A stretch of DNA of 64,000 nt from an uncultured Bacteroidota bacterium (lineage in GTDB: Bacteria > Bacteroidota > Bacteroidia > Flavobacteriales > Flavobacteriaceae): positions 20,419-84,418 of the forward strand of contig CABYFY010000007.1 of NCBI GenBank assembly GCA_902518355.1. Direction: 5' to 3'. The notes beneath the pieces were generated by a model. The model did not search any database, was not told the origin of the DNA, and saw only the letters and a program-made list of their open reading frames with translations. Positions 4,154-63,978 of this stretch are shown piece after piece (position 1 is the first letter of the stretch; each line of letters opens with the position of its first letter). The position numbers and the translations under genes are program-made.

Positions 4154-4965
4154 TACCAGTCTTTTTCAGAAACAACTTTTGTGCCTTTTTGTTTCTTATC
4201 ATTCACTTTTGCTTGAACTTTCTTTTCAGCATTTTCCATAGCCTTCAATAAATTTTTAATCTGTTGGGGAGAAAGTTTTGATTGTTGGTTCTTGTTTTCT
4301 TTAGGTTTCTCAGACTTATTATCATCCTTGTTTTGATCGTCTTTATTCTCACTATCCTTATTCTGATCATCTTTATTTTGATCGTCTTTATTCTCATTGT
4401 CCTTATTCTGATCATCTTTGTTTTGATCGTCTTTACTCTCATTATCCTTATTCTGATCATCTTTGTTTTGATCGTCTTTATTCTCATTGTCCTTGTTCTG
4501 ATCATCTTTGTTTTGATCGTCATTTTGCTGTTCCTCTTCACATTTCTTAGCCAGTGCTAAATTGTAACGAGTTTCATCATCGCCGGGGTCATTTCTCAAA
4601 GCATTTTTATACGCTAATACTGCTTCTGAACACATTTCTTTTTTCATTAGAGAGTTGCCCAAATTGTGAAAAGCTTTGTGTTTTTCGGATTTATTTTTTG
4701 CAAGTTTGGTTGATTCTATTTGTCTTGAAATTGCTTCGTCATATAGACCTTCGCTGTAATATTTATTAGATAAATTGAATGTGGCTCTTAAGTCACTTAG
4801 TGAATCGTCAATAGCAACTCTAAAATTCTTTTCAGCTTCCTCAAAGTTGTTTTCAATAAGCTTATTTCCTTTGTTATAAAATTTAGCATAATTTTCTGAC
4901 TGAGAATAAATATTATTTGATGCCAGAATGAAAATAAAAAAGCAAAAAAGTATATTATTTTTCAT
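4153..4965 (-). CDS. batC: BatC-like TPR protein with acidic DDQNK repeat
   Basis: Signal peptide, TPR motifs, low-complexity D/N/Q/K repeat; between batB and batD. Confidence 0.8.
   Translation of the reverse strand: MKNNILFCFFIFILASNNIYSQSENYAKFYNKGNKLIENNFEEAEKNFRVAIDDSLSDLRATFNLSNKYYSEGLYDEAISRQIESTKLAKNKSEKHKAFHNLGNSLMKKEMCSEAVLAYKNALRNDPGDDETRYNLALAKKCEEEQQNDDQNKDDQNKDNENKDDQNKDDQNKDNESKDDQNKDDQNKDNENKDDQNKDDQNKDSENKDDQNKDDNKSEKPKENKNQQSKLSPQQIKNLLKAMENAEKKVQAKVNDKKQKGTKVVSEKDW
4318..4525. repeat. Coding tandem repeat, 45-bp period (15 aa: KDDQNKDDQNKDNEN), about 4 copies, inside batC
   Basis: Direct reading of repeated gatcatctttgttttgatcgtctttattctcattgtcctt units and of the translated repeat. 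Confidence 0.9.
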
Positions 4966-41294: not shown

Positions 41295-41459
41295 ATGCCA
41301 ACTCCACTAATAATAATAATTACCTTATTTGTTTTGAATTGGATTATAAGAATTCTAATCAGAAAGAATCCTCAAAATAAATCATTAATGAAACTAAGTT
41401 TTTTTATAAGCTTTAGTATGATTGCATATACAATATATTACTTCTTTTTTGTAAGATAA
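41295..41459 (+). CDS. Putative 54-aa membrane peptide
   Basis: Manual translation MPTPLIIIITLFVLNWIIRILIRKNPQNKSLMKLSFFISFSMIAYTIYYFFFVR; two hydrophobic segments; overlaps the 3' end of the GH43 gene. Confidence 0.35.
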   Translation: MPTPLIIIITLFVLNWIIRILIRKNPQNKSLMKLSFFISFSMIAYTIYYFFFVR

Positions 41460-43111
41460 TTTACATAATCGAACGAAGCAAAATCCTGATTGTTTTTTCC
41501 ATTTCCTGTTGCATAAAGTCCAAGATGTGCGCCCGTATAACCATTACTTTTGAGGTATGACCCCTCTAGGCTAGTAAACAATTTAAAATGCATTCCTTTT
41601 AATGAATAATAAAGCTTGTAAACATCTTTGTATGCGATTACTTTAAGTTTTATGTTGCCTTTGTACTGTTTCAACTCATCTTTTATTAACTCTAATATTT
41701 CACCATTTTTCACAACATAGACTTGTAGGTGGTGTTTATCACCTTTTTTTATTATCGTAAAGTTTATATAATTATCATCTTTTTGAAAAAGACTAATCCC
41801 TGCTTCTGAATCACTTGAATTTGGTTGAAAATACATTTGTGTTAAATATTCAAAATCTGATTCAGTTTGTTTAAAACCTAAAAGCGCAGCTCTTCCTCTC
41901 TCCTTTATTTGATTTGGATGACAAAATAAGTTTAAACGATTTTCTTGATTATTGATTTTGTAAACATCTTCTATTGGATATCTGCGAAAGTTCCAGTTTA
42001 AATCAAGCTTTGTTGTGTCAAAATTATCTGCAAAATGTGTTACTTTATTTTGAACTGAGTTATTAAATATAACATCATTTAAGATTTCAACTCTGCCGGT
42101 TTCAGGAGCTACAACAGGCCATAAATGTTTGGTCTCTTTCCATTCAAAAGGCTCTCTTTCCCATGTTAGAGGAACAAGAAAAGTTTCTCTACCCATATTT
42201 GAGCCTCTTTCAATTTGATTTCTAATCCCCAATAATACCATATAATTTCTTCCATCATTTAATTCCAAAATGTCACCATGACCAGTACTATTTACCCAGT
42301 TATCATATGATAGATGTCGTGAGGTTATTATAGGGTTTCTAGGGTTTGATATATATGGTCCTTCTATGTTATCGCTTAATGCTACCATAACAGCATGATT
42401 AAAGCTAGTACCACCCTCAGCAATGATTAAATAATAACGCCCATCCTTTTTATACATATGAGGACCTTCGGCCCAGACGCCTCCACATGCACCTCTCCAC
42501 AGAAGGTGCTTTTTTCCGATTAATTTAAATTCGTTTATATCTAATTCTTGAAGCCAAATTTCTCCTTCTCCGTCAAAATTTGGATTTTCCGGCATTTGAT
42601 TACCTACATACCATACCCTTCCATCATCGTCAAAAAATAAATCAGGATCTATTCCTGGAGCACCCTGAATGTGAAATGGATCTGACCACGGACCAGCAGG
42701 GTTTTCAGCCGTTATTATAAAATTTACCATGTCAGCTTTTCCCTTCTCTTCATCGTAATATACATTAGTTGTAATTATATAATAAATTCCATCTTTATGC
42801 CTTATTGTAGGTGCATGAATTCCACCGTTAGATTGGACATCGATTAGATTTACAGTTGAATTGACCTGAGATTTTCTGTGTAGTCCATAACCAATTAATT
42901 CCCAATTAATTAAATCTTTACTTTTATGAATAGGTAGCCCGGGAAAGTATTCAAATGATGAATTGACTATATAGTAGGTGTCTCCAACTTTACAAATTGA
43001 TGGATCTGGATAGCCACCAGGAATTATCGGATTAGAAAACTTTTCCTGAGCATTTGTAGAAAAAGAAAAAAATAAAAATATTATCAAATATTTTTTATAA
43101 TTACGATTCAT
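41438..43111 (-). CDS. GH43 family beta-xylosidase/arabinofuranosidase with C-terminal beta-sandwich domain, secreted
   Basis: Signal peptide; NPIIPGGYPDPSICKVGDTYYIVNSSFEYFPGLPIHKSKDLINWELIGY; C-terminal xylosidase-type domain. Confidence 0.93.
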   Translation of the reverse strand: MNRNYKKYLIIFLFFSFSTNAQEKFSNPIIPGGYPDPSICKVGDTYYIVNSSFEYFPGLPIHKSKDLINWELIGYGLHRKSQVNSTVNLIDVQSNGGIHAPTIRHKDGIYYIITTNVYYDEEKGKADMVNFIITAENPAGPWSDPFHIQGAPGIDPDLFFDDDGRVWYVGNQMPENPNFDGEGEIWLQELDINEFKLIGKKHLLWRGACGGVWAEGPHMYKKDGRYYLIIAEGGTSFNHAVMVALSDNIEGPYISNPRNPIITSRHLSYDNWVNSTGHGDILELNDGRNYMVLLGIRNQIERGSNMGRETFLVPLTWEREPFEWKETKHLWPVVAPETGRVEILNDVIFNNSVQNKVTHFADNFDTTKLDLNWNFRRYPIEDVYKINNQENRLNLFCHPNQIKERGRAALLGFKQTESDFEYLTQMYFQPNSSDSEAGISLFQKDDNYINFTIIKKGDKHHLQVYVVKNGEILELIKDELKQYKGNIKLKVIAYKDVYKLYYSLKGMHFKLFTSLEGSYLKSNGYTGAHLGLYATGNGKNNQDFASFDYVNYLTKKK

Positions 43112-47201: not shown

Positions 47202-47657
47202 ATGAAAAAAATTCTATTTACACTTGTTTTAACAGCTTTTCTGTTCAATTGTGAAACACCTGAGCAAAGTAAATACAATGAGAATGAAATAATATTTGTA
47301 GTTGAAATGGATGCTAATGAGGGGAAATCTGAAGATGATATCGCAAAATTTTCTAAATACTATACTGATGCAATTGATAATACGGAACCTAATTCACTAG
47401 GATGGGGATTTTACAATTCAGGTGATAAAGTAATTCTAATCGAAAGATACTTAGACGGAAATGCAATGATGGAGCATGTGAAAAATATTTCTGAAGGTGG
47501 GCCACTGGAAACACATTTTGTTAAATTCATGGAGCATTTTACAATAAACAAGATTGATGTTTATGGTACTACGTCTGATGAATTAAAAGAATTTGTAAAA
47601 CCTTTCGGTTTACCTTTCTATTTTCATCCTGATTTTGCAAAATTTAGCAGAAATTAA
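47202..47657 (+). CDS. Lipoprotein with ABM (antibiotic biosynthesis monooxygenase)-like domain
   Basis: Start trimmed to MKKILFTLVLTAFLFNCETPEQ (lipobox); EIIFVVEMDANEGKSEDDIAKFSKYYTDAIDNTEPNSLGWGFY...ERYLDGNAMMEHV. Confidence 0.7.
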   Translation: MKKILFTLVLTAFLFNCETPEQSKYNENEIIFVVEMDANEGKSEDDIAKFSKYYTDAIDNTEPNSLGWGFYNSGDKVILIERYLDGNAMMEHVKNISEGGPLETHFVKFMEHFTINKIDVYGTTSDELKEFVKPFGLPFYFHPDFAKFSRN

Positions 47658-48709
47658 TGTTTAATTTTTTTAAAGTTTCTATTTTAATTAGTGCCATGTT
47701 TTTTTCATGCGCTAATAATCAGAAAGATAAAAGTATTTCATTTGAAACTCCTGATGGTATGGTTTGGGTTGAAGGGAAATCATACACAAAAGGGGCGAAA
47801 CAAAATGATGATTACGCAATGATGAGAGAAAAGCCTTCTCATGAAGTTTATATTGACGGGTTTTATATCGACGTTACGGAGGTTACAAATAATCAATTTC
47901 AAAAATTTGTAAACGAAACTGGTTATTTAACAATAGCTGAAAGAGAAATCGATTGGGAGGAAATGAAAAAAAACCTACCCGCTGGGACACCAAAACCCCA
48001 CGATTCTATTTTACAGCCAGGCAGTCTAATATTTAATGATAAATTAAAAAAAGTCGATAATATGAATAATTATTTTCAATGGTGGAGATGGCAAACTGGA
48101 GCAAATTGGAGATCACCAAAAGGCCCTGGTTCCAGCATTGAAAATAAAGGCAACTTCCCTGTAGTTCATATTGCTTATGAGGATGCTAAAGCTTATTGTG
48201 AATGGGCTAACAGAAGACTTCCTACTGAAGCAGAATGGGAATCAGCAGCACAGGGGAATTATAAAAATGCTGTTTTTCCTTGGGGAGATGATTTAAAATT
48301 GTTGAACTCAAATGCAAATACCTGGCAGGGCAATTTTCCTGTAAAAAACGAATCAATTGACGGATATGAGATGATTGCCCCAGTAAAATCTTTTCCTGCA
48401 AATAGCATTGGTGTATTTGATATGGTTGGAAATGTTTGGGAAATCACTGATGATTTATTCAACGTCAATTACTATTCAGAAATAAGTACTGAAACTGAAC
48501 TAAAAAATCTAAAAGGCGCTAGTAGTTGTTACAACCCAAGCAACCCATACGAAATACAATATGTAATGAAAGGTGGTTCGTTTTTATGTCATGATTCTTA
48601 TTGTGCAAGCTATAGAATTTCTGCAAGGATGGGTCTGAGTGTTGGTTCAGGGTCAGACCACACTGGATTTAGAACAGTGGCAACACCTGAAATGCTTCTA
48701 AATAAATAA
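47657..48709 (+). CDS. Formylglycine-generating enzyme (SUMF1/FGE) family protein, lipoprotein
   Basis: DGMVWVEGKSYTKG, DVTEVTNNQFQKFV, RRLPTEAEWESAAQG, GNVWEITDD and FGE-type active-site motif GGSFLCHDSYCASYRISARM; lipobox AMFFSCAN. Confidence 0.93.
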   Translation: MFNFFKVSILISAMFFSCANNQKDKSISFETPDGMVWVEGKSYTKGAKQNDDYAMMREKPSHEVYIDGFYIDVTEVTNNQFQKFVNETGYLTIAEREIDWEEMKKNLPAGTPKPHDSILQPGSLIFNDKLKKVDNMNNYFQWWRWQTGANWRSPKGPGSSIENKGNFPVVHIAYEDAKAYCEWANRRLPTEAEWESAAQGNYKNAVFPWGDDLKLLNSNANTWQGNFPVKNESIDGYEMIAPVKSFPANSIGVFDMVGNVWEITDDLFNVNYYSEISTETELKNLKGASSCYNPSNPYEIQYVMKGGSFLCHDSYCASYRISARMGLSVGSGSDHTGFRTVATPEMLLNK

Positions 48710-48778: not shown

Positions 48779-50266
48779 ATGTATTTTTTAGGTTTAGATG
48801 TTGGTAGTTCCTCTGTTAAAGCAGCTTTAGTAGAATCTGAATCTGGAAAAAGTGTTCTTAGTGTACACGAGCCAAAAAACGAGATGAGCATAAGTTCAAT
48901 AAAAAACGATTGGGCCGAACAAGATCCTAATTTGTGGTGGAAATATACCTGTCTTGCGATTAAAAGAGTTTGTAAAGAATCAAACGTAGATCCAAAAAAA
49001 ATTATTTCAATTGGTATTTCATACCAAATGCATGGTTTAGTGATTGTCGATAGTAATGGTGAACCTTTGCGAGATTCAATTATTTGGTGTGACAGCAGAG
49101 CTGTAGATATTGGTAATAAAGCATATGAGAAATTAGGTGAGGAAAAATGTATGTCGCGACTACTAAACTCACCAGGAAATTTTACAGCTTCTAAATTGAA
49201 ATGGGTAAAAGAAAATGAACCAGATATTTATGAAAAAATTTATAAATACATGTTGCCAGGTGATTATATAGCCTACAAATTAACGGGGGAGATTAATACA
49301 ACTAGAAATGGCTTGTCAGAAGGAATAATTTGGGATTATAAAGAAAATAAAACTGCAGATTGGTTGCTTGATTTTTATGGCATCGACTGTAGTTTAACCC
49401 CTGAAATTGTAGACAACTTTTCAAATCAAGGATCTACAAATATCAATGCTTCTGAACAAACAGGATTAAATATTGGTGTCCCAATAACATATAGAGCAGG
49501 AGATCAACCAAACAATGCATTAGCCTTAAATGTTTTTGATGATGGTGAAGTGGCGGCCTCTGGTGGAACTTCCGGAGTCATTTACTCGATTACAAATAAT
49601 ATAAATTCCAAAGAACCTTCACGAATTAATCATTTTGCTCATGTTAACTACAATGATGATAGCAAATCAATTGGTAAATTACTTTGCATAAATGGAGCAG
49701 GAATTCAATACAGATGGCTTAGAAATCATAGTGTTGGAAAGTCCTATGAAAAAATGAATGAGCAAGCATCTAGTATTTCTGTCGGATCAGATGGAATTTC
49801 TGTAATACCATTTGGAAATGGAGCTGAAAGAATGTTAAATAATAAAAATATAGGCACACATATTTGTAATATAAATTTAAATAAACATAGTCATGGCCAC
49901 CTTTATAGATCTGCTTTAGAAGGTATTGCCTTTTCTTTTATGTATGGGATGGAAATACTCAAAAACGATAATGCAGCTATCAATGTGATTAGAGCCGGAA
50001 ATGATAATTTATTTAGATCAGAAATTTTTGCTAATACCGTTTCAACTTTGATTGGTCATGAAATCGAAATATATAATACAACCGGTGCATTTGGGGCAGC
50101 CCGTGCATCAGGGGTTTTAAATAATGATTTAAATTCATTTAGAGAGAAAATTACCAAGAATGATCACGTAATGACATTTCTACCTCTTAAAAATAGGTCT
50201 GAATATGAAGATGCATATTCGAGATGGAAAGAAGATTTACAAGGAATATTAAATAACAAAAAATAA
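48779..50266 (+). CDS. xylB: Xylulokinase
   Basis: FGGY kinase: [35 protein letters not shown]; adjacent to xylA. Confidence 0.95.
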
Positions 50267-50270
50267 AGTT

Positions 50271-51584
50271 ATGAGTAAAGAATATTATAAAGGAATTGAA
50301 AAAATTAAATATGAAGGAGCTGAATCAGATAATCCTTTAGCATTTAAATATTATGATCCAAACAAAATAGTTGCTGGTAAGAAAATGAAAGAGCACTTCA
50401 AATTTGCAATTGCTTATTGGCATTCATTCTGTGGAGTTGGATCAGATCCATTTGGTCCGGGAACACTAAATTTTGAATGGGATAAAAATCCAGATCCAAT
50501 TCAAGCAGCCAAAGATAAAGCTGATGCTGCATTTGAATTTATTCAAAAAATGGGCTTTGATTATTTCTGCTTTCATGATTTTGATTTAGTAAAAGAAGCT
50601 ACAACGTTTTCTGAATCTGAAAAAAGATTAGAAACAATTGTTAACTATATTAAAAACAAAAAAAAAGAAACTGGAATTAAGCTTCTTTGGGGAACCGCAA
50701 ATTGTTTTTCAAACCCAAGATATATGAATGGAGCAGCAACTAATCCCAACTTCAATGTAGTTGCTCATGCCGGAGCTCAAGTAAAATTAGCCTTAGACGC
50801 AACAATCGAATTAAATGGAGAAAATTATGTTTTTTGGGGTGGTAGAGAAGGTTATATGTCACTACTAAATACTGATATGGGTAGAGAACTAGATCACATG
50901 GCAAGATTTTTAACAATGGCAAAAGACTATGCAAGAGCTCAAGGTTTCAAAGGGACTTTTTTCATTGAACCAAAACCAATGGAGCCAATGAAACATCAAT
51001 ATGATTTTGATTCAGCTACAGCGATTGGATTTCTTAAAGAATATGGGCTTGATAAAGATTTCAAACTAAATATTGAAGTGAATCATGCTACCCTAGCTCA
51101 GCATACGATGCAACATGAATTAGCCGTAGCCGCAAAAGCAGGAATGCTTGGAAGTATAGATGCTAATCGAGGTGATTATCAAAATGGATGGGATACCGAT
51201 CAATTTCCTAATAATATCCTTGAGACAACAGAAGCTATGCTTGTGTTTCTTCAATCAGGAGGGCTTCAAGGGGGTGGTATAAATTTTGATGCAAAAATTA
51301 GAAGAAATTCTACTGATTTAGAAGACATATTCTATGCCCACATTGGTGGGGCTGACACCTTTGCAAGAGCTTTAATCACTGCTGATAAAATAATGACCTC
51401 TTCTTCCTATTCTGATTTAAGAAAAAAGAGATATCAGAGTTTTGATAGTGGAAAAGGTAAAGATTTTGAAAACGGTAAATTAGAACTGAAAGACTTGTAT
51501 GAAATAGCAAAAGATGCAAATGAAGTAAGTCCTGAAAGTGGAAAACAAGAGCTTTTCGAAAATATTTTGAATCAGTATATCTAA
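50271..51584 (+). CDS. xylA: Xylose isomerase
   Basis: [86 protein letters not shown]. Confidence 0.98.
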
Positions 51585-51590
51585 GGAATT

Positions 51591-53243
51591 TTGACAACAG
51601 TTTTAGAAGGATTAGATTGGGTAGTACTTGCAATATATTTTCTTGCTTTAATTCTCGTTGCAGTCTGGGTTGTTTTACAAAAGAATAAAAATACAGAAGA
51701 TTATTTTTTAGCTGGAAGGAATGTAGGATGGTTTGTAATTGGTGCGTCAATTTTTGCATCAAACATTGGGTCTGAACATGTTGTTGGGCTAGCAGGAACG
51801 GGATTTGAGTCTGGAACACCTATGGCTCATTATGAGCTACATGCTTGGATAGTTTTATTACTTGGCTGGTTGTTTTTACCGTTTTATATTAGGAGTGGCG
51901 CTTTTACGATGCCCGAATTTTTAGAGAAAAGATTTGATTCAAAATCAAGATGGTTTTTATCCCTTTTTTCTCTGATTGCCTATGTCTTAACAAAAGTTTC
52001 CGTTACGATTTACGCTGGTGGAATTGTCGTTTCTGAATTGCTGGGAATACCTTTTTGGTATGGTGCTATTGGTGTTGTGGTTTTTACAGGGATATATACC
52101 GTGATGGGAGGAATGAAAGCTGTAATTTATACTGAAACCCTTCAAGCTGTTGTGCTAATTTTAGGTTCAATAATTATCACTTATCTAGGGTTACAAGAAG
52201 TTGGTGGATGGACTGAATTAAGAAATACTGTAATTGCTGCAAGCCCTGATCATTTTAACATGTGGCGCCCTATGTCAGATCCTGATTTTCCTTGGACTGG
52301 ATTGTTATTCGGGGGTACTATAGTGGGTGTTTGGTATTGGTGTACAGATCAATATATAGTTCAGAGAACACTTGCTGCCAACAATATTAAAATTGGAAGG
52401 CGAGGAGCAATATTTGGTGCTTATTTAAAGTTGTTGCCAATATTCATTTTTCTAATTCCAGGAATAATTGCCTTTGCATTATCGATTCAAAATCCAGAGG
52501 TATTTTCTATTGAAAAAGCTGATAGAGCATTCCCAGTGCTTGTTAAAACTTTACTTCCTGTTGGATTGAAAGGGTTAGTTGCAGGAGGTCTGATGGCAGC
52601 ACTTATGAGTTCACTTGCGTCAGTATTTAATTCATGCTCAACTATATTTACAATTGATATATACAAAAAGTTAAAGCCTAATGAGTCAGAAAAAAAACTA
52701 TTGAATATTGGTAAGCTTGCAACTACTGTAATAGTAATTCTTGGAATCATTTGGATTCCGATTATGGAAAAAATTGGAGGTGGCGTTATGTATCAATATC
52801 TCCAAAATGTTCAATCCTATATAGCTCCACCTGTAGCTGCTGTTTTCATCTTAGGAATTGTTTGGAAAAGAGTAAATTCAAAAGCAGCCATAACAACTTT
52901 AATGGCTGGTTTAGTTCTGTTAATTATGAGGCTTAGTTCAGAAATTTACTTTCAACCTGAAATATCTTCAAACACAATAGTTGATAGCTACATGTTTATC
53001 TTTGCCACAATTAATTTTTCACACATGGCAATACTTATGTTTATATTTTCAATCTTATTATGTGTGGGTGTTACACTTTCTACAACTGAACCTGAATATA
53101 GTAAAATTGTGGGGCTATCATTTGGCACATTAACAAAGGAGCAGAGGTTAGAAAACAAAAATAGTTATGAAACAATAGATGTGATTTTATCAGTCAGTTT
53201 GGTAATCATTGTTGTTGCTATTTTAAGTTATTTTACCGGATAA
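51591..53243 (+). CDS. Sodium:solute symporter (SSS family), probable sugar transporter
   Basis: NTEDYFLAGRNVGWFVIGASIFASNIGSEHVVGLAGTG; SGLT-like TM protein directly after xylBA. Confidence 0.93.
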   Translation: MTTVLEGLDWVVLAIYFLALILVAVWVVLQKNKNTEDYFLAGRNVGWFVIGASIFASNIGSEHVVGLAGTGFESGTPMAHYELHAWIVLLLGWLFLPFYIRSGAFTMPEFLEKRFDSKSRWFLSLFSLIAYVLTKVSVTIYAGGIVVSELLGIPFWYGAIGVVVFTGIYTVMGGMKAVIYTETLQAVVLILGSIIITYLGLQEVGGWTELRNTVIAASPDHFNMWRPMSDPDFPWTGLLFGGTIVGVWYWCTDQYIVQRTLAANNIKIGRRGAIFGAYLKLLPIFIFLIPGIIAFALSIQNPEVFSIEKADRAFPVLVKTLLPVGLKGLVAGGLMAALMSSLASVFNSCSTIFTIDIYKKLKPNESEKKLLNIGKLATTVIVILGIIWIPIMEKIGGGVMYQYLQNVQSYIAPPVAAVFILGIVWKRVNSKAAITTLMAGLVLLIMRLSSEIYFQPEISSNTIVDSYMFIFATINFSHMAILMFIFSILLCVGVTLSTTEPEYSKIVGLSFGTLTKEQRLENKNSYETIDVILSVSLVIIVVAILSYFTG

Positions 53244-54083
53244 TTATTTTATTGTCGGTGGGCCTGATAAATACCGATTGGATTTTAAAAAAATATCTGA
53301 CTCATAAAGTGTATCTATAAAATCTTGTCCACGGTTAAAAAAAGCATGTTCAGCATCTTGATAAAAAATTACATCACATCTACTACCAACTGCTTCCATT
53401 CTTTTTTTATAGTTTTCAATTAATTCGACTGGAACTATTTTATCCTTTGTCCCGGTTAATATAATTGTTGGGGGAGCCCCTTTGCTTATATTATCGTATG
53501 GGGAAGCGTTGGATGGGTTGTTAATCCATCCCCATTTTCTTCCAAAATGTAAGACTGGATTATAAAGAATTAATAAGTTAGGTTTAGAACTGATAGTAAG
53601 ATCTTCGTTACTATTATCAAATAAGTCAATATTTCCCGACACTGCTGCCAAGTGGCCTCCTGCTGATCCCCCAGCGGCAGCAATTTTATTTGGATCAATT
53701 GAAAGTACTTTTGCATTCGACCTGATAAACCTTATTGCAGATTTTGCATCCTCCATTGCTTGAATCGGAGAAGTGCCATGCACATTTCTTATGCGATACT
53801 CAACAGAAACAGCTACCATTCCTCTTGAAGCAAAATATCTTGATTGTCTTTGAAATTGTTCAGGTGATCCGTTATTCCAACCGCCTCCGTGAAAAAAAAT
53901 AATACAACTATATTTTTTTTTGATATCAAATTCTGACGGTTTATATACAAATAAATTGAGGTCTCCTTCATTGGTTTTCTTGTAAAGAAGCTTTTCGGGT
54001 TTTATTTGTTGAATTTTATTTTGCGAATAATTTAATTGTAGTAATCCAAATATTAATAATATGCTTAAAGTAATCCTTAACAT
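53244..54083 (-). CDS. Secreted alpha/beta hydrolase (carboxylesterase/acetylxylan esterase-like)
   Basis: IIFFHGGGWNNGSPEQFQRQSRYFASRGMVAVSVEYRIR, AAAGGSAGGHLAA, AEHAFFNRG. Confidence 0.87.
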   Translation of the reverse strand: MLRITLSILLIFGLLQLNYSQNKIQQIKPEKLLYKKTNEGDLNLFVYKPSEFDIKKKYSCIIFFHGGGWNNGSPEQFQRQSRYFASRGMVAVSVEYRIRNVHGTSPIQAMEDAKSAIRFIRSNAKVLSIDPNKIAAAGGSAGGHLAAVSGNIDLFDNSNEDLTISSKPNLLILYNPVLHFGRKWGWINNPSNASPYDNISKGAPPTIILTGTKDKIVPVELIENYKKRMEAVGSRCDVIFYQDAEHAFFNRGQDFIDTLYESDIFLKSNRYLSGPPTIK

Positions 54084-54085
54084 TA

Positions 54086-55090
54086 TTAATCAAAATTTAT
54101 AAATTTTTTTACAACTTCATATGTTTTGGTTGGAATCGTGTCATTATCATATATAGACATATAATGACCTTTTTTACCACGAGAACTTATTCTCTCTCCC
54201 ATACTCCAAAAATTTACTGTAACTAATCCATTTTTTGATTTTTCTTGTAATAAGTCCATTAACTTTTGATACACCTCGGCTTGCTTTTTAACAGAATTAA
54301 AAATATTATTTTCACCGTCATTATAATAATCCAACTCAGTTATATGAAATTCAAGTTTATTTGAATGAGCCCAGTCAATTAGGTCAGATAATTTTTTTAA
54401 TTCCTCATCTAGATTTTCAACAAATTGTTTAAGTCCATTATTATTCATTAAATGACCTTGCCAGCCAATACCATCAACTCTTTGGCCTTTTGACTTTAAA
54501 TACATAACTGTTTCTTTTAGCTTCTCCCACATTGGAATCTGCATGCCACCATTCTGATTATAAACAAGCTTTTTATTAGGAGCATATTTATCTGCAAGTT
54601 CAAATGCCCTAATTATATATAATGGGTATCCATTTTCGTCAAGACCAATGTCTAACCATGGGTTTTCCCATTTACTATTCCCTGGCTTTGAGCCAAGCCA
54701 TTTTCCCGATGCTAAAATGGTTTCGTTTACAACATCAATCCATTTTATATTATCAAAATCTTTATATCTGTCTAGAAGTCTGAATAAAAATTCATCAAGG
54801 CTAGCTTGAAGTTCATCAGCTGTTCTTGCATCATCTTTAATCCATTTTGAGCATTGTGGTCCAATAGGACTATGGAGTCTAAAAAGTAAATTATTATCTT
54901 TTGAAAACTTGGCAAAGTTGTCAATTTGGTTCCACTTCCAACTACCTTTTGTCGGATTAATATTTGACTGTTTTGCAGCATTCATTGCTGTCAAATATTT
55001 AAAATCTTTTAAAAATAGATTTGCATAATTACTACTCAGTTCCCTGTGTATTAATGTTGATCCAACCAAAAAGCTTTCATTCTCAGGAGA
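54086..55090 (-). other. GH10 domain of the fusion (approx. residues 650-983)
   Basis: Acid/base Glu codon 54722-54724 and nucleophile Glu codon 54335-54337. Boundaries approximate. Confidence 0.85.
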
Positions 55091-57037
55091 TGAAATTGCA
55101 CTGATATTATTCTTCTCTTTTGGGGTTGACAATTTTTCGGATTCATATTTTAAGATTGAATCAACTTGTTTCTTTGTAAATTTTTCAAGCAATATGTCTT
55201 TTATAACACTAAATGTTTCTTTATAAATTGTTTCTATCTGATTATCTGTCAAATTGTTGTTAGCAGTCAAATTGTTATTTCTTGCATACTTACTATAAAG
55301 AACGTCAATTATAAATTCCTTTTGGTTTTTATTCATCAGCATTTCTCCAGCAATATAATTTCCAATAATCTTTGACCTTTTATCAGCCCACGAGTTTGAT
55401 CTGTCATTGGTCATAATATTTTGAGATATCACATTAGATTTAACAACTGTTGGTTTTTCCGAAATTTGAGAGTTAAAAAACCCATTGGCTAATTTGACAA
55501 ACTGAGTTTTTATCCTTTGGTAATTTTCTAAACTAGCTTTATTTTCAGTTTCATTTGGGTCAGTCTTGTAGTCATAAAGCTCTTCGGCATAGATATCATC
55601 ATTTGAAATCGGCTCAGTACTTTTTTTATTTTTCACCCAAACTGTATACCTATATCTTTCTGATCTAAAACTGTAGCCCATAGTTTCTCCAGAGGCCTTG
55701 GAGCGTCTTGGATATTGACTAACCGCAAAAATCTTTGATGTGTTATTTTCGCCCTCAATTTGTGGCTTCAAACTTATACCGTCTAGATTTTGAGGCATAT
55801 CCAAATTTGTCATATCACATAAAGTGGGAAAAATATCAACAAATTCAGTAGGTGAGCTTATTTTATTCATCTCGTTAACTCTTGGGTCTTTAATTAATAA
55901 TAGGGAACGTGTTGACTGCTCAAAATTTGTATGTTTAGTCCACTGGCTGTGATCTCCAAGATGAAAACCATGATCACCCCAAATAACAATAATTGTATTT
56001 TTATCTAGGCCCTTTTCTTTAAGCTTATCAACAAGCTTTCCTATTTGCGCGTCAATATAACTTGAAGCAGCATAATATCCATGAATCAATTTTCTTTGAA
56101 AATCATCTGCTAAAATCAAAAGATTTTCCTCATTGTGTGGATAGTCTGTTTCAGGCGTATGATATGAGTTAATTTCCCATCCAGCTTTATAAGCAATATC
56201 AACAGGGTATTTAGACTTTGTTCTAAATTCCGCCAACTTGATTTCATTTGGGTCATATAAATCCCAATATTTTGTTGGTGCAACAAATGGCATATGAGGT
56301 CGAACGAATCCCACAGCAAGAAAAAATGGTTGTGAAGTATCCATATTATCGATTAACTCAAGGCTACGATTAGCTATTGCGCCATCTACATATGCACCGT
56401 CAGGAACATCAGCACTTTCATAAGGTGGCTTATAAATGTCTGTAGTATATTTATTTAAACCACTCTCACTAATACCCTTTGAAATTCCTTCTTGCCTTAG
56501 TTGAGATACTTTTGCTCTAATTTCATCACTTTGATAGAATCCATTTGCAGGAAAACTGTATCCATCAGAAAATATTAGATTTCTCTGAGATATAAACGGA
56601 ACAGACCAAGACGGCTTATCTTTAAAATTGTCAACACTTCGATTATCAAAAATCTTTCCAATGCCTATTGTCTGATAGCCATTTTGCTTGAAATACTGAG
56701 GAATGGTTAAAATATCAGGATTCATATCTCTCATTCTTGTTTTTAAATCCCAAACTCTTGTCTTATCAGGTCTAAGGCCGGTCATTAAACTTGCCCTTGA
56801 GGGGCCGCATACTGCTTGCTGAGTGTGATTATTTAAAAAAACAGTTGATGATTTTGATAATTCGTCAATATTTGGCGTGACAGCGAAATCATCACCAAAA
56901 CTACCAATACTTGGCTTCAAATCATCCACGGCAATAAACAAAACATTCATTTTTTCCTCAGTTTGAGAAAATAGAGAAAGGTATGAGAAAAGTAAGGTAA
57001 AGAATATTATTGTTTTATGACTTGCTAATATTTTCAT
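54086..57037 (-). CDS. Bimodular secreted sulfatase - helical linker - GH10 protein (983 aa)
   Basis: Signal peptide; sulfatase NVLFIAVDDLKPSIGSFGDD and CGPSRASLMTGLRPD (predicted FGly Cys77), WGDHGFHLGDHSQWTKHTNFE; GH10 C-terminus WIDVVNETI (E772) and FHITELDYYND (E901); one uninterrupted ORF. Confidence 0.92.
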   Translation of the reverse strand: MKILASHKTIIFFTLLFSYLSLFSQTEEKMNVLFIAVDDLKPSIGSFGDDFAVTPNIDELSKSSTVFLNNHTQQAVCGPSRASLMTGLRPDKTRVWDLKTRMRDMNPDILTIPQYFKQNGYQTIGIGKIFDNRSVDNFKDKPSWSVPFISQRNLIFSDGYSFPANGFYQSDEIRAKVSQLRQEGISKGISESGLNKYTTDIYKPPYESADVPDGAYVDGAIANRSLELIDNMDTSQPFFLAVGFVRPHMPFVAPTKYWDLYDPNEIKLAEFRTKSKYPVDIAYKAGWEINSYHTPETDYPHNEENLLILADDFQRKLIHGYYAASSYIDAQIGKLVDKLKEKGLDKNTIIVIWGDHGFHLGDHSQWTKHTNFEQSTRSLLLIKDPRVNEMNKISSPTEFVDIFPTLCDMTNLDMPQNLDGISLKPQIEGENNTSKIFAVSQYPRRSKASGETMGYSFRSERYRYTVWVKNKKSTEPISNDDIYAEELYDYKTDPNETENKASLENYQRIKTQFVKLANGFFNSQISEKPTVVKSNVISQNIMTNDRSNSWADKRSKIIGNYIAGEMLMNKNQKEFIIDVLYSKYARNNNLTANNNLTDNQIETIYKETFSVIKDILLEKFTKKQVDSILKYESEKLSTPKEKNNISAISSPENESFLVGSTLIHRELSSNYANLFLKDFKYLTAMNAAKQSNINPTKGSWKWNQIDNFAKFSKDNNLLFRLHSPIGPQCSKWIKDDARTADELQASLDEFLFRLLDRYKDFDNIKWIDVVNETILASGKWLGSKPGNSKWENPWLDIGLDENGYPLYIIRAFELADKYAPNKKLVYNQNGGMQIPMWEKLKETVMYLKSKGQRVDGIGWQGHLMNNNGLKQFVENLDEELKKLSDLIDWAHSNKLEFHITELDYYNDGENNIFNSVKKQAEVYQKLMDLLQEKSKNGLVTVNFWSMGERISSRGKKGHYMSIYDNDTIPTKTYEVVKKFINFD
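55403..56956 (-). other. Sulfatase domain of the fusion (approx. residues 28-545; iduronate-2-sulfatase-like S1 family)
   Basis: CGPSR motif codon at 56807-56809; metal-binding DD and DHGFHLGDH motifs. Boundaries approximate. Confidence 0.85.
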
Positions 57038-57108: not shown

Positions 57109-58320
57109 ATGAATAAAATAAGCCTAATAATTATAATCTGTTTGCAATTTGTTTTTAGAATTGAATCCCAGAACTATAACCCTGATTTATTTTTAAAAGA
57201 TTATTCGGGGGATATGATAATCACTACACAAGTAAAAGCGGAAAGAAATAAGGCTATTCTTAGGGGAACAGAAGCAAAGAAAAATAGAGGTTTTGTTTTA
57301 GAAAATTACAATGGCATTCAGCCCTCAATTTATCCAGCATGGGATGAAGGATTCTGGCCAAATAAAAAACCAGAGTCGTTAACAGATTTTAATTTTGAGA
57401 CCAAGTTTTTTGACGAATTAGTAAACTGGGGAGTAGAAAATGACTTTCATATAATCCATCACTGTTTAATCTTTCCTAATAAATACTTCCCAAAATGGTT
57501 CTCAAAAACTAACTACTCAGCTAATGAACTAGAGTATATTCTTGAAAAATTCATTGTAGAGGTTTTAAACTCAAATGATAATAAAGATAAGGTTGATATA
57601 TTTAATGTGATCAATGAGATTTTTGCTATGGGTAGATCTGGAAAGTATAGGGTTTCGGGAAATGAAAAAGAAGATTGCAAGTGGATGGATATGGGTTTTG
57701 AAAAAGATAATTCAGGACTTGTTGGTGAACAGAATATCAATAGTGAGCACCCAATTTTTGTTAGAAGAGTTTTTGAAATTGCCTCTGAACTAACAGATGC
57801 CAAATTAGAAATAAGAGATTTTAATATTGCTTTTGGGGGGAAAAAAGCAGATGGTTTATATCAACTTGTAAAACATTTAAAAAACTCTGGAGTAAGAATT
57901 GATGCTGTGGGCTTTCAATGTCATTTGAATGTAGGGATAAATTATAACTACGAAAACCTTAGAAAAAATATTAAAAGGTTTATAGAGCTGGGAGTTGAAG
58001 TTTATATTACAGAGTTAGATGTTGGATTAAATCTTTGGGGGCAGGGTGGTAATCACAAAAAGGTTTCGGATGTAATTAAATCCCAAAGTGATTGGAATAA
58101 TTTTTTTGAAGAGCAAAACAAAATATATTATAATTTGGTTAAAACAGCAAAAGAGTCGGGTGTTAAACTTATTAGTGATTGGGGTTTCCGGGATGATATT
58201 CCGTATGGTGGGTGGAGAAAAGATCAAAAGGCATGGATGGTAAATAAGGACTATTCTAGAAAGGGAGCATACTATGCAGTTCTAAAGGCGCTTTATGATG
58301 CTGAGCAAAATAAAAAATAA
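57109..58320 (+). CDS. Divergent GH10 family protein (secreted)
   Basis: DIFNVINEIFAMG (acid/base), IDAVGFQCHLN, VEVYITELDVGL (nucleophile), signal peptide. Confidence 0.88.
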   Translation: MNKISLIIIICLQFVFRIESQNYNPDLFLKDYSGDMIITTQVKAERNKAILRGTEAKKNRGFVLENYNGIQPSIYPAWDEGFWPNKKPESLTDFNFETKFFDELVNWGVENDFHIIHHCLIFPNKYFPKWFSKTNYSANELEYILEKFIVEVLNSNDNKDKVDIFNVINEIFAMGRSGKYRVSGNEKEDCKWMDMGFEKDNSGLVGEQNINSEHPIFVRRVFEIASELTDAKLEIRDFNIAFGGKKADGLYQLVKHLKNSGVRIDAVGFQCHLNVGINYNYENLRKNIKRFIELGVEVYITELDVGLNLWGQGGNHKKVSDVIKSQSDWNNFFEEQNKIYYNLVKTAKESGVKLISDWGFRDDIPYGGWRKDQKAWMVNKDYSRKGAYYAVLKALYDAEQNKK

Positions 58321-58365: not shown

Positions 58366-60357
58366 ATGAAAAAAAATTTATTGATTTTTTTGACATTCAT
58401 ATCCCTAAATGTATTAGCCCAAAGCACATCTTTTGAAATTGTTGAGGAAATGGGTAGGGGTATTAATTTAGGAAATGTTCTAAGTGCTCCAATCGAAGGT
58501 AATTGGGCTTTTTCTGTATATGAAGAATATTTTGACCAAGTTAAAGATGAAGGCTTTAACAACGTAAGAATTCCAGTTGATTTTTTTGGGGGTACCTTTT
58601 TGAATGCAGATTACACTGTGAATGGAAGTGAAAGAACTCTTAGTAGTTTATCAAACTGCGATGACAACTCGTGTTTTTCAGAGTTAGCTGGTACCCAAAA
58701 TCAATATGATGGAAGTCCAGATGATTATTATGTTAATCCTTTGTACTTGGATAGGCTACAACAAATTGTTGACTGGTCAATGTCAAAAGGACTAGTTACA
58801 ATAATTGACTTTCATGGAGCGAAACTAAAAGAAAATTTTCTTTACACTTTTGACCAAAGTGACATAAACGGGGTGAACTACTATTCAGATCCAACATCTG
58901 CAAAAAGAATTGCGGATTTAAATAAATTTAAAGCAATCTGGAGAGATATTGCGGAAAGATTTAAAGATTATCCAGAAACATTACTATTTGAAGTTTTCAA
59001 TGAACCTTATTTTTGGCTTTCAGCCAATGAAATATCCACCATTTCCAGTGATATAATTAACATTGTAAGGTCATCAGGCTCTAACAATGAATCCCGTAAA
59101 ATAATTATTACAGGAGGAGATACTAACAGCTGGGAGGTTATTTTTCAGATACCAAATGATTTGATTAATTCTGACCCAAATTTAATAGCAACTTTTCACT
59201 ATTATCAACCCATGAGTTTTACATCATCAATGCAGGAGAACAATAATAATTTTAATTTGAGTCAAAATGCAAAAAATCAAATTATGCAAAGATTTAGTCA
59301 GATTAACTCATGGTCAACAACAAATAATATTCCTGTTTATCTAGGTGAATTTGGAGCAGATAATGAAAATGGAATAAATTATTGGATTGGAGGATCTAAC
59401 GGAGCTTTTGGTGGCCCAAACCCTGCAGATAGAATCGAATATCATAGGCATATTGCTGAGCAAGCAATATCAAATAATTTTTCGTTTTCTGCTTGGTGTG
59501 CTGGAAACAAATCAACCAAAACTATAAGTTTAAGAACTGACAACCCTGAAAGCGAAAATGTTATTGCGGGAAATTGGGTTGAAGAGGTTAAGGACGCATT
59601 ATTGGGAATTGGTTGCTACAATTCAGAGGATGTCTTAATACAAAACCCCGATTTTGAATGTGGTATTAATAATGGCTGGAATTTATCAACCTTTAGTGGT
59701 GCACAAGCTAATTTTTCTGAAACAGAAACTGAATCATATGAAGGGAAGTCGGCTAGGATTGAGGTTACAGAATTGGCATCCAGTAATTCTGGATTTAACA
59801 AGGTGATTTTGAACAATCAAGAATATGATCAGGATTTAAGTGGTAAAACAATTAATATAAAATTCAATGCTAAGTCAAACTCTAATAACAATGAATCCAT
59901 TTCAATAAAAATTAGGTTAAAGCTTGGTAGTAGTGGTAACAATTATATTGTTTCAGATGAATTAACCCTTAGTTCAGAATATAACCTTTATGAATTTGAA
60001 TTCGATATCGACGAGACATATGATGCTCATAAATTACAAGTATTATGTGGAAATGCTATTGGGGAATATTTCTTTGATAATTTTGAAACAATAATTAATG
60101 ACCAATCATTTTCAAATTATGATGAAATTCTTCATGATGTTATCTTCTTTCCGATACCATTTGAAAATAATTTATACTTCAATTCAAATCAAAATTTAGA
60201 TGTTAGTATATATAGTATAGACGGTAAACTAATAAGTATCTTAAAACTACAAGGTGAGACAGGGAAAGTAAATCTTGACTTTCTTGAAAAAGGTGTTTAT
60301 ATATTAAAGTACTTGGTTGAGGGGGTAAATTATTACAAAAGGATAATTAAAAATTAA
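58366..60357 (+). CDS. GH5 family glycoside hydrolase with CBM-like domain and T9SS sorting domain
   Basis: GINLGNVLSAPIEGNW, NNVRIPVDFFGG, LLFEVFNEPYFW, VYLGEFGADNENG; CBM4_9-like NPDFECGINNGWNLSTF; C-terminal sorting signal ending KGVYILKYLVEGVNYYKRIIKN. Confidence 0.92.
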   Translation: MKKNLLIFLTFISLNVLAQSTSFEIVEEMGRGINLGNVLSAPIEGNWAFSVYEEYFDQVKDEGFNNVRIPVDFFGGTFLNADYTVNGSERTLSSLSNCDDNSCFSELAGTQNQYDGSPDDYYVNPLYLDRLQQIVDWSMSKGLVTIIDFHGAKLKENFLYTFDQSDINGVNYYSDPTSAKRIADLNKFKAIWRDIAERFKDYPETLLFEVFNEPYFWLSANEISTISSDIINIVRSSGSNNESRKIIITGGDTNSWEVIFQIPNDLINSDPNLIATFHYYQPMSFTSSMQENNNNFNLSQNAKNQIMQRFSQINSWSTTNNIPVYLGEFGADNENGINYWIGGSNGAFGGPNPADRIEYHRHIAEQAISNNFSFSAWCAGNKSTKTISLRTDNPESENVIAGNWVEEVKDALLGIGCYNSEDVLIQNPDFECGINNGWNLSTFSGAQANFSETETESYEGKSARIEVTELASSNSGFNKVILNNQEYDQDLSGKTINIKFNAKSNSNNNESISIKIRLKLGSSGNNYIVSDELTLSSEYNLYEFEFDIDETYDAHKLQVLCGNAIGEYFFDNFETIINDQSFSNYDEILHDVIFFPIPFENNLYFNSNQNLDVSIYSIDGKLISILKLQGETGKVNLDFLEKGVYILKYLVEGVNYYKRIIKN

Positions 60358-60369
60358 GACTGTCCTAAA

Positions 60370-61419
60370 TTAAAGAATTGGAAAATCATTATAGGGATCA
60401 AGTGTTTTGATTAACCCATCCTCGTCGTATTGAATTTCAGCAATTTTAATAGATCTCAAATGCGTAATACCTTTAGAGAGTGAAGAATCATGATAAAATA
60501 AATACCATTTACCCTTGAATTCACAAATTGAATGGTGAGATGTCCAGCCAACAACAGGGTTTAATATTTTTCCTTTGTAAGTAAACGGTCCATAAGGATT
60601 ATCACCAATTGCATAACAAATAAAATGTGTGTCACCCGTTGAGTATGAAAAATAGTATTTACCATTATACTTGTGTACCCAAGCCGCCTCAAAAAAACGT
60701 CTTTCATTATCACCGGCTAATAGCAATTTACCTTTTTCATCAAGAATTTGTACCTCCCTTGGTTTTTCAGCAAATTCTAATAAATCGTCTGACATTTTTG
60801 CGACAAAAGGTAAAAGAGCATGTTCATCATCATTTGGAAGAAAAGCTGTTGGACTTGTAGGATTGCTTGGGTTAAAAACCCCATCTCTCCATCTTTGTAA
60901 TTGGCCACCCCATATACCTCCAAAGTACATATAATATTCTCCATGATCGTCTTTGTAAACTGCAGGGTCTATTGAAAAACTTCCTTCGATTGGTTTATCC
61001 ATTGGGATAAACGGGCCCTCTGGGTTTTCACCAACTGCAACGCCAATTCTAAAAATACCTTTATAATCTTTTGCTGGAAAAAACAAATAATATTTTCCAT
61101 CTTTCTCATTTGCATCTGGTGCCCACATTTGTTTTTCAGCCCATTTCACATTATCTACGTGTAATGCAATTCCATGATCTTTGACTTCGCTATCTATGTC
61201 TTCCATTGAAAATACATGATAGTCTTCCATAGCAAAATGACTTCCTAAATCGTCAAATGCATCACCAGCGTCTATATCGTGAGAAGGATATATGTAAATC
61301 TTTCCGTCAAAGACATGTGCAGATGGATCGGCAGTGTAAAGATGAGTAATTATGTGTGGTGATATTGATCTTTTATTTAAATCTTCAAAATCAATATGGT
61401 CGATACTATTCTCTGGCAT
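60370..61419 (-). CDS. GH43 family glycoside hydrolase, no signal peptide
   Basis: ITHLYTADPSAHVFDGKIYIYPSHD, MWAPDANEKDGKYYLFFPA, HHSICEFKGKWYLFYHD. Confidence 0.93.
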   Translation of the reverse strand: MPENSIDHIDFEDLNKRSISPHIITHLYTADPSAHVFDGKIYIYPSHDIDAGDAFDDLGSHFAMEDYHVFSMEDIDSEVKDHGIALHVDNVKWAEKQMWAPDANEKDGKYYLFFPAKDYKGIFRIGVAVGENPEGPFIPMDKPIEGSFSIDPAVYKDDHGEYYMYFGGIWGGQLQRWRDGVFNPSNPTSPTAFLPNDDEHALLPFVAKMSDDLLEFAEKPREVQILDEKGKLLLAGDNERRFFEAAWVHKYNGKYYFSYSTGDTHFICYAIGDNPYGPFTYKGKILNPVVGWTSHHSICEFKGKWYLFYHDSSLSKGITHLRSIKIAEIQYDEDGLIKTLDPYNDFPIL

Positions 61420-61427
61420 TGTAATCT

Positions 61428-62861
61428 CTAACTTTTTCTTTTTTTCAATAAATCTTGTTCAATCTTCTCCTCCATCTTTTTATCAATGATATAAAAGAAT
61501 AGTAAAGCAGCGGCAACTAAAAAAGGAATTGAGGGAAATATACTAACCAACATTTTAGTACCTAAAATTGCAGATTCGGTTTGTTCACCTACGCTATTTG
61601 GGACATAACCATAGCTGCCTAGTATAGATGCTACTAATGCGCCCCCAATACTTAAGCCAAGCTTAAGACCTACCATCATTGCTGAAAAAATTATTGCAGT
61701 AGCTCTTCTATTATTTTTCCATTCTGAATAATCTGCAACATCAGCAATCATCGCCCAAAGCAGTGGTATCGTAATCCCGTAAAAGAACCCATGAAATATT
61801 TGGGCACCAAAAATTAAATTAATGGAATCAGGTGAGAGAACATAAAAAACTAAAATGAATAAAGTTGATATAAATAAAAATACCCCAAACACATTTCTTT
61901 TTCCATATTTGTCAGCTAACATTTTAGACAAACCAATTCCAATTATCATAAATATAATCCCACCTGCATTAAACAATCCGAAACCAGCTGAGACAGGATC
62001 ACTTCCAAAGAAATTTATCCCGATACTTGATAAAAAATCTATTATGGGTGAAATAAAATCACTCAAAGAATTTTTTGAAACATAGTTTTCAAAATAATAG
62101 ACATATGCTCCCCCTTTCATAGCAAGGGTAGTGAATTGTAAAATGGTAACAGTTAGCATTATTACCCAAGGAATATTTTTTACTAAATCCTTTAGGTCAT
62201 CCAATATGCTTGATGATTCTTCTGGCTTAGGAACAATCCTTTCCTTAGTTGTAATAAATGTTATAAGTAATAAAACCGTTCCTATTACAGCAAGCCATGT
62301 CATAGTGATTTCAATACCAAGTGCTTTGTCTCCGTCACCAACATAATTTATAATAGCAAGCATAAATACTTGGACAAAGAATTGAGCAAACATAACAGCA
62401 ACAAATCTATATGCTGAAATACTATTTCTCTCTTTCATATCACCAGTTATAACTCCGCTAAGTGCTGAGTAAGGTAAATTGCTTCCCGCATATAATAAGA
62501 GTAATAATGTGTAAGTAACTACCGCATATATAACTTTACCGTTGTAAGAAAAATCAGGCGTAGTAAATGCTAATACTGAAGTAACTCCCAGTGGTACTGC
62601 AGTCCACAATATCCATGGTCTAAACTTACCCCACTTACTGTTTGTTCTATCGGCTAATGCTCCAACAATTGGATTAAAAGCAAAAGCAGCAACAGTTCCA
62701 ACTGTAAATATAATTTTGGTTGCATCATCCGCATTTAAGCCATAAATATCCGTGTAGAAATATGCTAAATATGTGATTAAAGTTTGAAATACAAGATTAG
62801 CTGATAAGTCTCCAAGACTATATCCAATCTTTTCTTTAATAGAGAGTGGTTGTGTTGTCAT
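61428..62861 (-). CDS. GPH-family MFS sugar:cation symporter (probable xylo-oligosaccharide/xyloside transporter)
   Basis: KEKIGYSLGDLSANLVFQTLITYLAYFYTDIYG, NPIVGALADRTNSKWGKFRPWILW. Start trimmed to MTTQPLSIKEKIGYSLG. Confidence 0.92.
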   Translation of the reverse strand: MTTQPLSIKEKIGYSLGDLSANLVFQTLITYLAYFYTDIYGLNADDATKIIFTVGTVAAFAFNPIVGALADRTNSKWGKFRPWILWTAVPLGVTSVLAFTTPDFSYNGKVIYAVVTYTLLLLLYAGSNLPYSALSGVITGDMKERNSISAYRFVAVMFAQFFVQVFMLAIINYVGDGDKALGIEITMTWLAVIGTVLLLITFITTKERIVPKPEESSSILDDLKDLVKNIPWVIMLTVTILQFTTLAMKGGAYVYYFENYVSKNSLSDFISPIIDFLSSIGINFFGSDPVSAGFGLFNAGGIIFMIIGIGLSKMLADKYGKRNVFGVFLFISTLFILVFYVLSPDSINLIFGAQIFHGFFYGITIPLLWAMIADVADYSEWKNNRRATAIIFSAMMVGLKLGLSIGGALVASILGSYGYVPNSVGEQTESAILGTKMLVSIFPSIPFLVAAALLFFYIIDKKMEEKIEQDLLKKRKS

Positions 62862-62865
62862 AGTT

Positions 62866-63978
62866 TTATTTAATGTTTGAAGTGTCAATTTTCAACAGCT
62901 CAAAATATGCAGGTTTCTTTTTGTACTCTCTGTCAAATAATAGTGGGTAATCCGTTCTACCTCTGATAGGATTTTCATTTCTCCAAGTATATTTATCAGT
63001 AGTACCCCAGAAAGTTACCCTACTAATTTTATCATGATGTTTTAGAAATAATTCAAATATGTCTTTGTATCTCTTAGTTAATTTTTTTTGAATATTTTCA
63101 GGAATTCCAGATTTATATGGATCCCATTTCTTATCTCCTTCAAATTTTTTAAATTCTTCCCTTGCAATTCCTGCTAATTCGTAGGGATTTGGAATTACTG
63201 TTATATCAAGCTCGGTTATCATTACATCAACTCCAGTCGCTGCTAAATCAACAATTGTTTCTTCAATTTCTTTAATGCTCGGAAAGTGAAGGTCCCAATG
63301 AGCCTGAATACCAACCGCATCAATTCTAATTCCTTTTTCCTTTAAAGAATTAATTATCCTGATTGCACCTTGTCGTTTCTTTGGTTTATATAGGTTGTAA
63401 TCATTGTATGCAAGATCAACATTCGGATCAGTATCATTTGCATATTGAAATGCTTTTTCGATATAGTCATCACCCATCATTTCAAGAAATAAAGTCTCTC
63501 TAAGCGACCCATCCTCATTCAAAGCTTCATTAACAACATCCCACATATCGACCTTGCCTTTAAATCTTGTGACCATTTGAAATATGTGATTTTTTAAATG
63601 TCGGTTGAATTTAGCTTTGTCATTAATTTCCGAAACATATTCAGGAACTTGATTGTGCCAAACCAAAGTGTGGCCTAACAAGTACATGTTATTATCTTTG
63701 GAAAAATCTGTTATTTTCTGAGCGTTTGAGAATGTAAATTTTGAGTATTCTGGATGGGAGTGCATCCACTTCATTGAGTTTTCAGGAGTTACCGAATTAA
63801 AGTCCTCAGAGACGATTTCTAAAATCTTTTCATCTTTATCAATTAATTGATAATCTTCTTGATTTATAGTTGCTCCAATTAAAAAATAATCTTCAAATTT
63901 TTCTTTTAAACTTTCTGTTTGTTGTGAGCACATCATCAACGGAAAACATGCAAAAAATAAAAACAAAATATTTCTCAT
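62866..63978 (-). CDS. GH10 endo-1,4-beta-xylanase, lipoprotein
   Basis: NSVTPENSMKWMHSHP, LLGHTLVWHNQVPEYV, DMWDVVNEALNEDGSLRET, IRIDAVGIQAHWDL, VDVMITELDITV; lipobox CFPLMMCSQ. Confidence 0.97.
   Translation of the reverse strand: MRNILFLFFACFPLMMCSQQTESLKEKFEDYFLIGATINQEDYQLIDKDEKILEIVSEDFNSVTPENSMKWMHSHPEYSKFTFSNAQKITDFSKDNNMYLLGHTLVWHNQVPEYVSEINDKAKFNRHLKNHIFQMVTRFKGKVDMWDVVNEALNEDGSLRETLFLEMMGDDYIEKAFQYANDTDPNVDLAYNDYNLYKPKKRQGAIRIINSLKEKGIRIDAVGIQAHWDLHFPSIKEIEETIVDLAATGVDVMITELDITVIPNPYELAGIAREEFKKFEGDKKWDPYKSGIPENIQKKLTKRYKDIFELFLKHHDKISRVTFWGTTDKYTWRNENPIRGRTDYPLLFDREYKKKPAYFELLKIDTSNIK

Follow-up and report, generated by a model that had tools for sequence, protein, structure and literature searches.

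A sulfatase–GH10 fusion gene of independent origin in a marine flavobacterium

Introduction

Why would a sulfatase and a xylanase-family domain be encoded as a single protein, how did such a gene arise, and what might it say about the glycan on which it acts? To our knowledge, the use of sulfated xylans as a carbon source in the ocean has been predicted but has hardly any biochemical proof. We analyzed a sulfatase–GH10 fusion in a 64,000-nucleotide stretch of DNA (the window) from a marine flavobacterium (assembly of 1.42 Mb, 80% complete), together with its relatives among sampled genomes.

Results

One intact gene with two enzyme domains

The fusion gene (54086..57037, minus strand) is one unbroken ATG frame of 983 codons, in which a helical domain separates the sulfatase from the GH10 domain. 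Pfam matches to Sulfatase (residues 31-411, 1.6e-42), SGSH_C (361-513) and Glyco_hydro_10 (655-977, 2e-39) are all far over cut-off, and a signal peptide is predicted at about residues 1-24, ending in LSLFSQ (56966..57037, minus strand), with a hydrophobic core of 2.11 on a crude scale. The ORF and Pfam results confirm the initial annotation, which had described a single 983-aa frame with a signal peptide, a Cys-type sulfatase and a GH10 domain. The product is probably secreted, soluble and periplasmic.

That annotation also raised the concern of a chimeric assembly join. The gene is not a join artefact, because four other genomes of the same genus carry it at full length with 86-94% identity (G015, G008, G016 and G005; contig names AG-426-N06, AG-337-I16, AG-461-C17 and MED649); in a further genome, G004, residues 1-352 are present before the contig ends. 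Among the fusions, dN/dS is 0.02-0.08 for the sulfatase, 0.04-0.14 for GH10 and 0.10-0.28 for the helical part, and both enzymatic halves are under purifying selection; the short junction is relaxed, with codons too few to weigh. Since the same gene occurs in four independent assemblies with dN/dS far below 1, and no point was found in favor of a chimera or pseudogene, we consider either scarcely conceivable.

The sulfatase domain (residues 27-515; 55493..56959, minus strand) is of the S1 type, with a PF00884 match, a CxPSR motif and the metal and sulfate residues; its tentative assignment to S1_7 is based on the nearest solved chains, namely 6hhm and iduronate-2-sulfatase (IDS). The formylglycine motif C77-G-P-S-R81 (56795..56809, minus strand) and the two GH10 glutamates, E772 and E901, are as originally annotated, and C77, P79, S80, R81, N771 and both glutamates are invariant in an alignment of ten fusions, all of which have CxPSR. 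Residues D38, D39, C77, R81, K128, H248, D355, H356 and K368 are likewise invariant, and the catalytic set is complete except for Asp131 (56645..56647, minus strand), which aligns with His138 of IDS. This usual pocket histidine is replaced by Asp in all readable members of the sulfatase branch, which has the motif GKI[FY]DxR throughout; outgroups have GKxxH. As far as we know, His at this position is usual in S1 sulfatases and is not required of every member.

The formylglycine motif itself varies among relatives: ten stand-alone sister sulfatases (L014-L023) have CAASR rather than CGPSR, which is kept in the window-type fusions and in G002. A related sulfatase in G424 (L109:1480-3804, with GKIYDTR) carries a different C-terminal part of ~260 aa, which resembles a binding module with a T9SS tail.

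The GH10 domain (residues 653-983; 54089..55081, minus strand) combines a PF00331 match with both catalytic glutamates, the acid/base E772 (54722-54724, minus strand) and the nucleophile E901 (54335-54337, minus strand). Active-site residues Asn686, Lys689, His722, Asn771-Glu772, Gln860, His862 and Glu901 are retained, and the canonical −2 subsite Glu is replaced by Met (M in TAMNAAK). Together with Asp131, this substitution suggests that the specificity of either half could be unusual. AlphaFold2, given ten input sequences, modeled the full protein with a mean pLDDT of 42 and a pTM of 0.35, and therefore we make no claim on whether the two active sites face each other.

A four-helix domain between the enzymes

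The initial annotation reported a helical linker of ~110 aa. A helical segment is indeed present (residues about 540-636; 55130..55420, minus strand), and AlphaFold2 models it alone as four helices with a pLDDT of 84.5, but it is not a linker specific to the fusion: it is a conserved domain that also forms the C-terminal part of the sulfatases that stand alone in sister genomes, and it is older than the fusion. It matched no Pfam family, a PDB sequence search gave no convincing relative, and nothing significant came out of a fold search (best E 0.69), in which two Bacteroides sugar-binding-complex proteins, 3g6i and 3kdw, were non-significant matches.

The domain is homologous to secreted proteins of 112-119 aa. 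A strong stand-alone copy was found in ten of the 398 Flavobacteriaceae genomes searched, every time on the same contig as a sulfatase–GH10 fusion or its unfused sulfatase or GH10 relatives and 2-16 kb away, a linkage that is partly built in because the search profile was made from PUL copies. These small proteins are undescribed and lie in sulfated-xylan-type PULs (L045:2967-3305, L028:21782-22120, L039:6533-6871, L056:10610-10966, L058:3569-3925 and L061:2682-3041). In the fusion, the domain is an ancestral C-terminal domain of the window-type sulfatase and probably acts as a docking or spacer module.

Origin of the fusion

Twelve sister genomes have only a sulfatase at this place, ~631-638 aa long with its helical C-terminal part (one is cut by the contig), and the esterase comes next on every contig that extends beyond it. 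Sulfatase and GH10 are unfused neighbors, in that order, in G019, G173 and G194. The G019 sulfatase ends in ...YESEKLSTL*, its GH10 starts at the second codon past the stop, and this GH10 has its own signal peptide, MNFFYLRNSLILFFSFAISFAQ. DNA alignment with G019 identifies residues 637-652 of the fusion (55082..55129, minus strand) as what remains of a GH10 start and signal peptide that have been lost: each of the five fusions has an altered stop and start codon and lacks an identical 33-nt stretch, the hydrophobic core of the former signal peptide, while the flanking DNA can still be aligned. On the GH10 tree, G019 is sister to the window-type fusions with moderate support (82/66). Because of the unfused pair, the 33-nt deletion at the junction and this position on the tree, we conclude that a GH10 gene entered the locus behind a sulfatase–helix gene and later fused to it. 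Although counting cannot separate gain from loss, the GH10 signal peptide in G019 gives the direction within the genus. We reject G019 as a split of an older fusion, since the signal peptide of its GH10 is complete and the outside relatives of that GH10 stand alone.

Other sulfatase–GH10 fusions

Eight more Flavobacteriaceae (G384, G402, G208, G280, G429, G084, G353 and G088) encode a sulfatase followed by a GH10 within one ORF of ~858-878 aa, which makes 9 of 398 sampled Flavobacteriaceae genomes with the window counted; a phylum-wide sample of 396 genomes held no additional fusion. Long GH10 frames of 1150-1166 aa in G330, G151 and G349 are not sulfatase fusions. The initial annotation knew of no characterized enzyme with this architecture, left its novelty to a database check and took a lack of homologs with the same fusion as evidence against a real bifunctional enzyme. 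Novelty is not supported: homologs exist both in the genus (four) and in these eight other genomes, and a ‘sulfatase domain-containing GH10’ was already named in putative sulfated-xylan PULs in a 2019 ISME J survey of North Sea Bacteroidetes (PMC6794258). The open-access literature yielded no other text naming the combination and no characterized member.

The window fusion has the same domain order as the other Flavobacteriaceae fusions, and all fused sulfatases form one clade with those of the window's genus (support 100/99). The window-type GH10 groups with unfused GH10s, apart from most other fusions. The clades to be tested were defined by architecture, although the tests themselves came after inspection of the tree. 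A single clade comprising G019 and all fused GH10s was rejected (AU p = 1.3e-5), as was one clade of the eight other fused GH10s (p 2e-10), and the GH10 tree requires at least three changes between fused and unfused states. Thus, with its GH10 on another branch and a single origin rejected, the window fusion is independent of the others; a single fusion inherited by all Flavobacteriaceae also conflicts with the unfused state of G019.

Another sulfatase may have been fused in the genus, in frames of 1313-1406 aa (G003:C11, G012:C17, G001:C23 and G004:C17). The counterpart in the window's genome (L041:4063-8012) is a 479-aa sulfatase followed by an 835-aa gene.

The surrounding locus

G015, G008, G016 and G005 all have the gene order GH10c, MFS, GH43, GH5, GH10b, fusion, BD-FAE esterase, symporter, xylose isomerase, xylulokinase and formylglycine-generating enzyme (FGE). 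The BD-FAE-type esterase (53244..54083, minus strand) adjoins the fusion downstream and is a conserved neighbor. Beyond it, on the plus strand, lie a sodium:solute symporter (51591..53243), a xylose isomerase over the TIGR02630 cut-off (50271..51584), a xylulokinase-like gene (48779..50266; 292.7 bits, under the TIGR01312 cut-off of 380) and the FGE (47657..48709). On the other side, a second, divergent GH10 (57109..58320, plus strand), transcribed divergently from the fusion, is followed by a GH5 with a T9SS sorting tail (58366..60357, plus strand), a GH43 without signal peptide (60370..61419, minus strand), an MFS_2 sugar transporter (61428..62888, minus strand) and a canonical GH10 xylanase (62866..63978, minus strand; 1.4e-100), so that the locus has three GH10 domains, one of them within the fusion. 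A GH43-like protein with weak arabinosidase-model matches lies nearby (41438..43111, minus strand).

The FGE has the copper-binding Cys pair (CHDSYC) and is the only convincing FGE of the genome; two other PF03781 frames, of 573-575 aa, look like GldJ/GldK judging by their length. It begins with a lipoprotein-like signal (MFNFFKVSILISAMFFSCA), which suggests that formylglycine forms outside the cytoplasm. No SusC/SusD pair was seen beside the enzymes, with no TonB plug match in C7:61000-84418 and the contig ending at the locus. A second locus of the same genome (L041:6573-17996) has three sulfatases adjoining a SusC/SusD-like pair. Elsewhere in the window, the predicted protein at positions 4153-4965 contains a long DQNKDDQNKDNENKD repeat.

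Discussion

We give a probability of about 0.6 to the reading that this two-enzyme protein desulfates and then cleaves a sulfated xylan-like glycan; the substrate, the order of the steps, the benefit of proximity, the cell location and the role of the helical domain are what we infer. The FGE of the same locus would convert C77 to formylglycine, the sulfatase domain would act on a sulfated xylan-like oligosaccharide and remove a sulfate ester, probably one on xylose, after which the fused GH10 would cut the freed β-1,4-xyloside chain. The esterase, the GH43s, the other GH10s, the transporters, the xylose isomerase and the xylulokinase could complete degradation. The proposed sequence of steps draws on P36 of Formosa agariphila, a GH78|S1_25 ulvan hybrid whose two domains act consecutively (PMC8511951), and on an exolytic xylose sulfatase among the S1_7 sulfatases (PMC8360166). 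This reading is supported by the presence of xylose catabolism genes, xylanases and an FGE in a single locus, by synteny in sister genomes and by purifying selection on both halves. The combination of a xylose isomerase, a xylulokinase-like protein, GH10s, GH43, GH5, an FGE and an esterase fits a xylan that is sulfated and perhaps acylated. The sulfated xylan of the initial annotation, or another sulfated xylose-rich glycan, stays the best guess for a two-module enzyme encoded in a locus for xylose processing and sulfatase maturation, and is also the published guess for related loci. The further claim that the substrate must be desulfated during cleavage goes too far, for the fusion shows coupling and neither order nor obligate need; coupling is not obligatory, since twelve sister genomes keep the sulfatase alone at this place.

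The substrate might instead be a sulfated, xylose-containing heteropolysaccharide other than xylan (ulvan-like or glucuronoxylo-type), in which GH10 cuts an unusual β-xyloside. The S1_7-type 6hhm as nearest solved sulfatase, the occurrence of xylose-2-sulfate in ulvan, the divergent GH10 with its altered −2 region, and the GH5 and GH43 at the locus all agree with this. However, no ulvan lyase, GH78 or GH105 was recognized in the locus, and the three GH10s and the xylose isomerase point to xylan as the backbone, leaving this alternative rather unlikely. It is also possible that fusion brings only co-export and equal dosage, with the domains working separately on different bonds or molecules and gaining nothing from proximity. 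The fusion can be traced to simple read-through between neighboring genes, and unfused versions persist in relatives; yet the same two subfamilies have been fused repeatedly, independently and in the same order, and we find this explanation improbable. A bolder extension of the preferred reading, which we put forward as speculation, is that the two subfamilies were joined several times since physical coupling is needed on one specific sulfated xylan, and that the four-helix domain serves these PULs as a dedicated docking module, keeping separate enzymes together in relatives and incorporated into the enzyme here.

That the same two subfamilies were fused more than once, independently, argues at the genomic level that desulfation goes together with chain cleavage, and the independent origin strengthens the case for joint action on an algal polysaccharide that is sulfated and rich in xylose. 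Nature offers fused, split and tandem versions for a direct test of the benefit of coupling. The locus also draws attention to a small helical protein, so far undescribed, that is linked to sulfatase–GH10 loci.

Among known systems, the closest are the fusions of PMC6794258 and the ~860-880-aa proteins found here, the former probably being such ~870-aa ORFs, judging by their description; they resemble the window fusion in sulfatase-then-GH10 order, sulfatase clade (100/99) and 47-55% overall identity. In contrast, the linkers of the ~860-880-aa fusions are short and lack an internal four-helix domain, and the GH10 is from another branch. Their PULs contain GH3 and additional sulfatases, often together with GH5 or BD-FAE; the window locus lacks an adjacent GH3 or SusC/D. 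P36, also from a marine PUL, is likewise a sulfatase joined to a glycoside hydrolase, but its sulfatase half (6hr5) is of another subfamily, its glycoside hydrolase of another family, and its substrate differs. With S1_7-type sulfatases (6hhm; iduronate-2-sulfatase, 5fql and 6ioz) the window sulfatase shares its fold family and its metal and formylglycine residues, and departs from them in Asp131 for His138 and in its fusion to GH10. The GH10 half has the catalytic Glu pair and the active-site Asn, Lys, His, Gln and His of the endo-xylanases 5ay7 and 8hkg, but belongs to a divergent subfamily with RxHxPxxPQxSKW and Met for the −2 subsite Glu. The sulfatase–GH10 architecture was therefore already described in outline; what is new is the independent origin with its fusion fossil, the undescribed helical domain and the change of the pocket His to Asp. 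The window fusion is ordinary in kind, yet a re-invention that still carries a clear fossil of how it was made.
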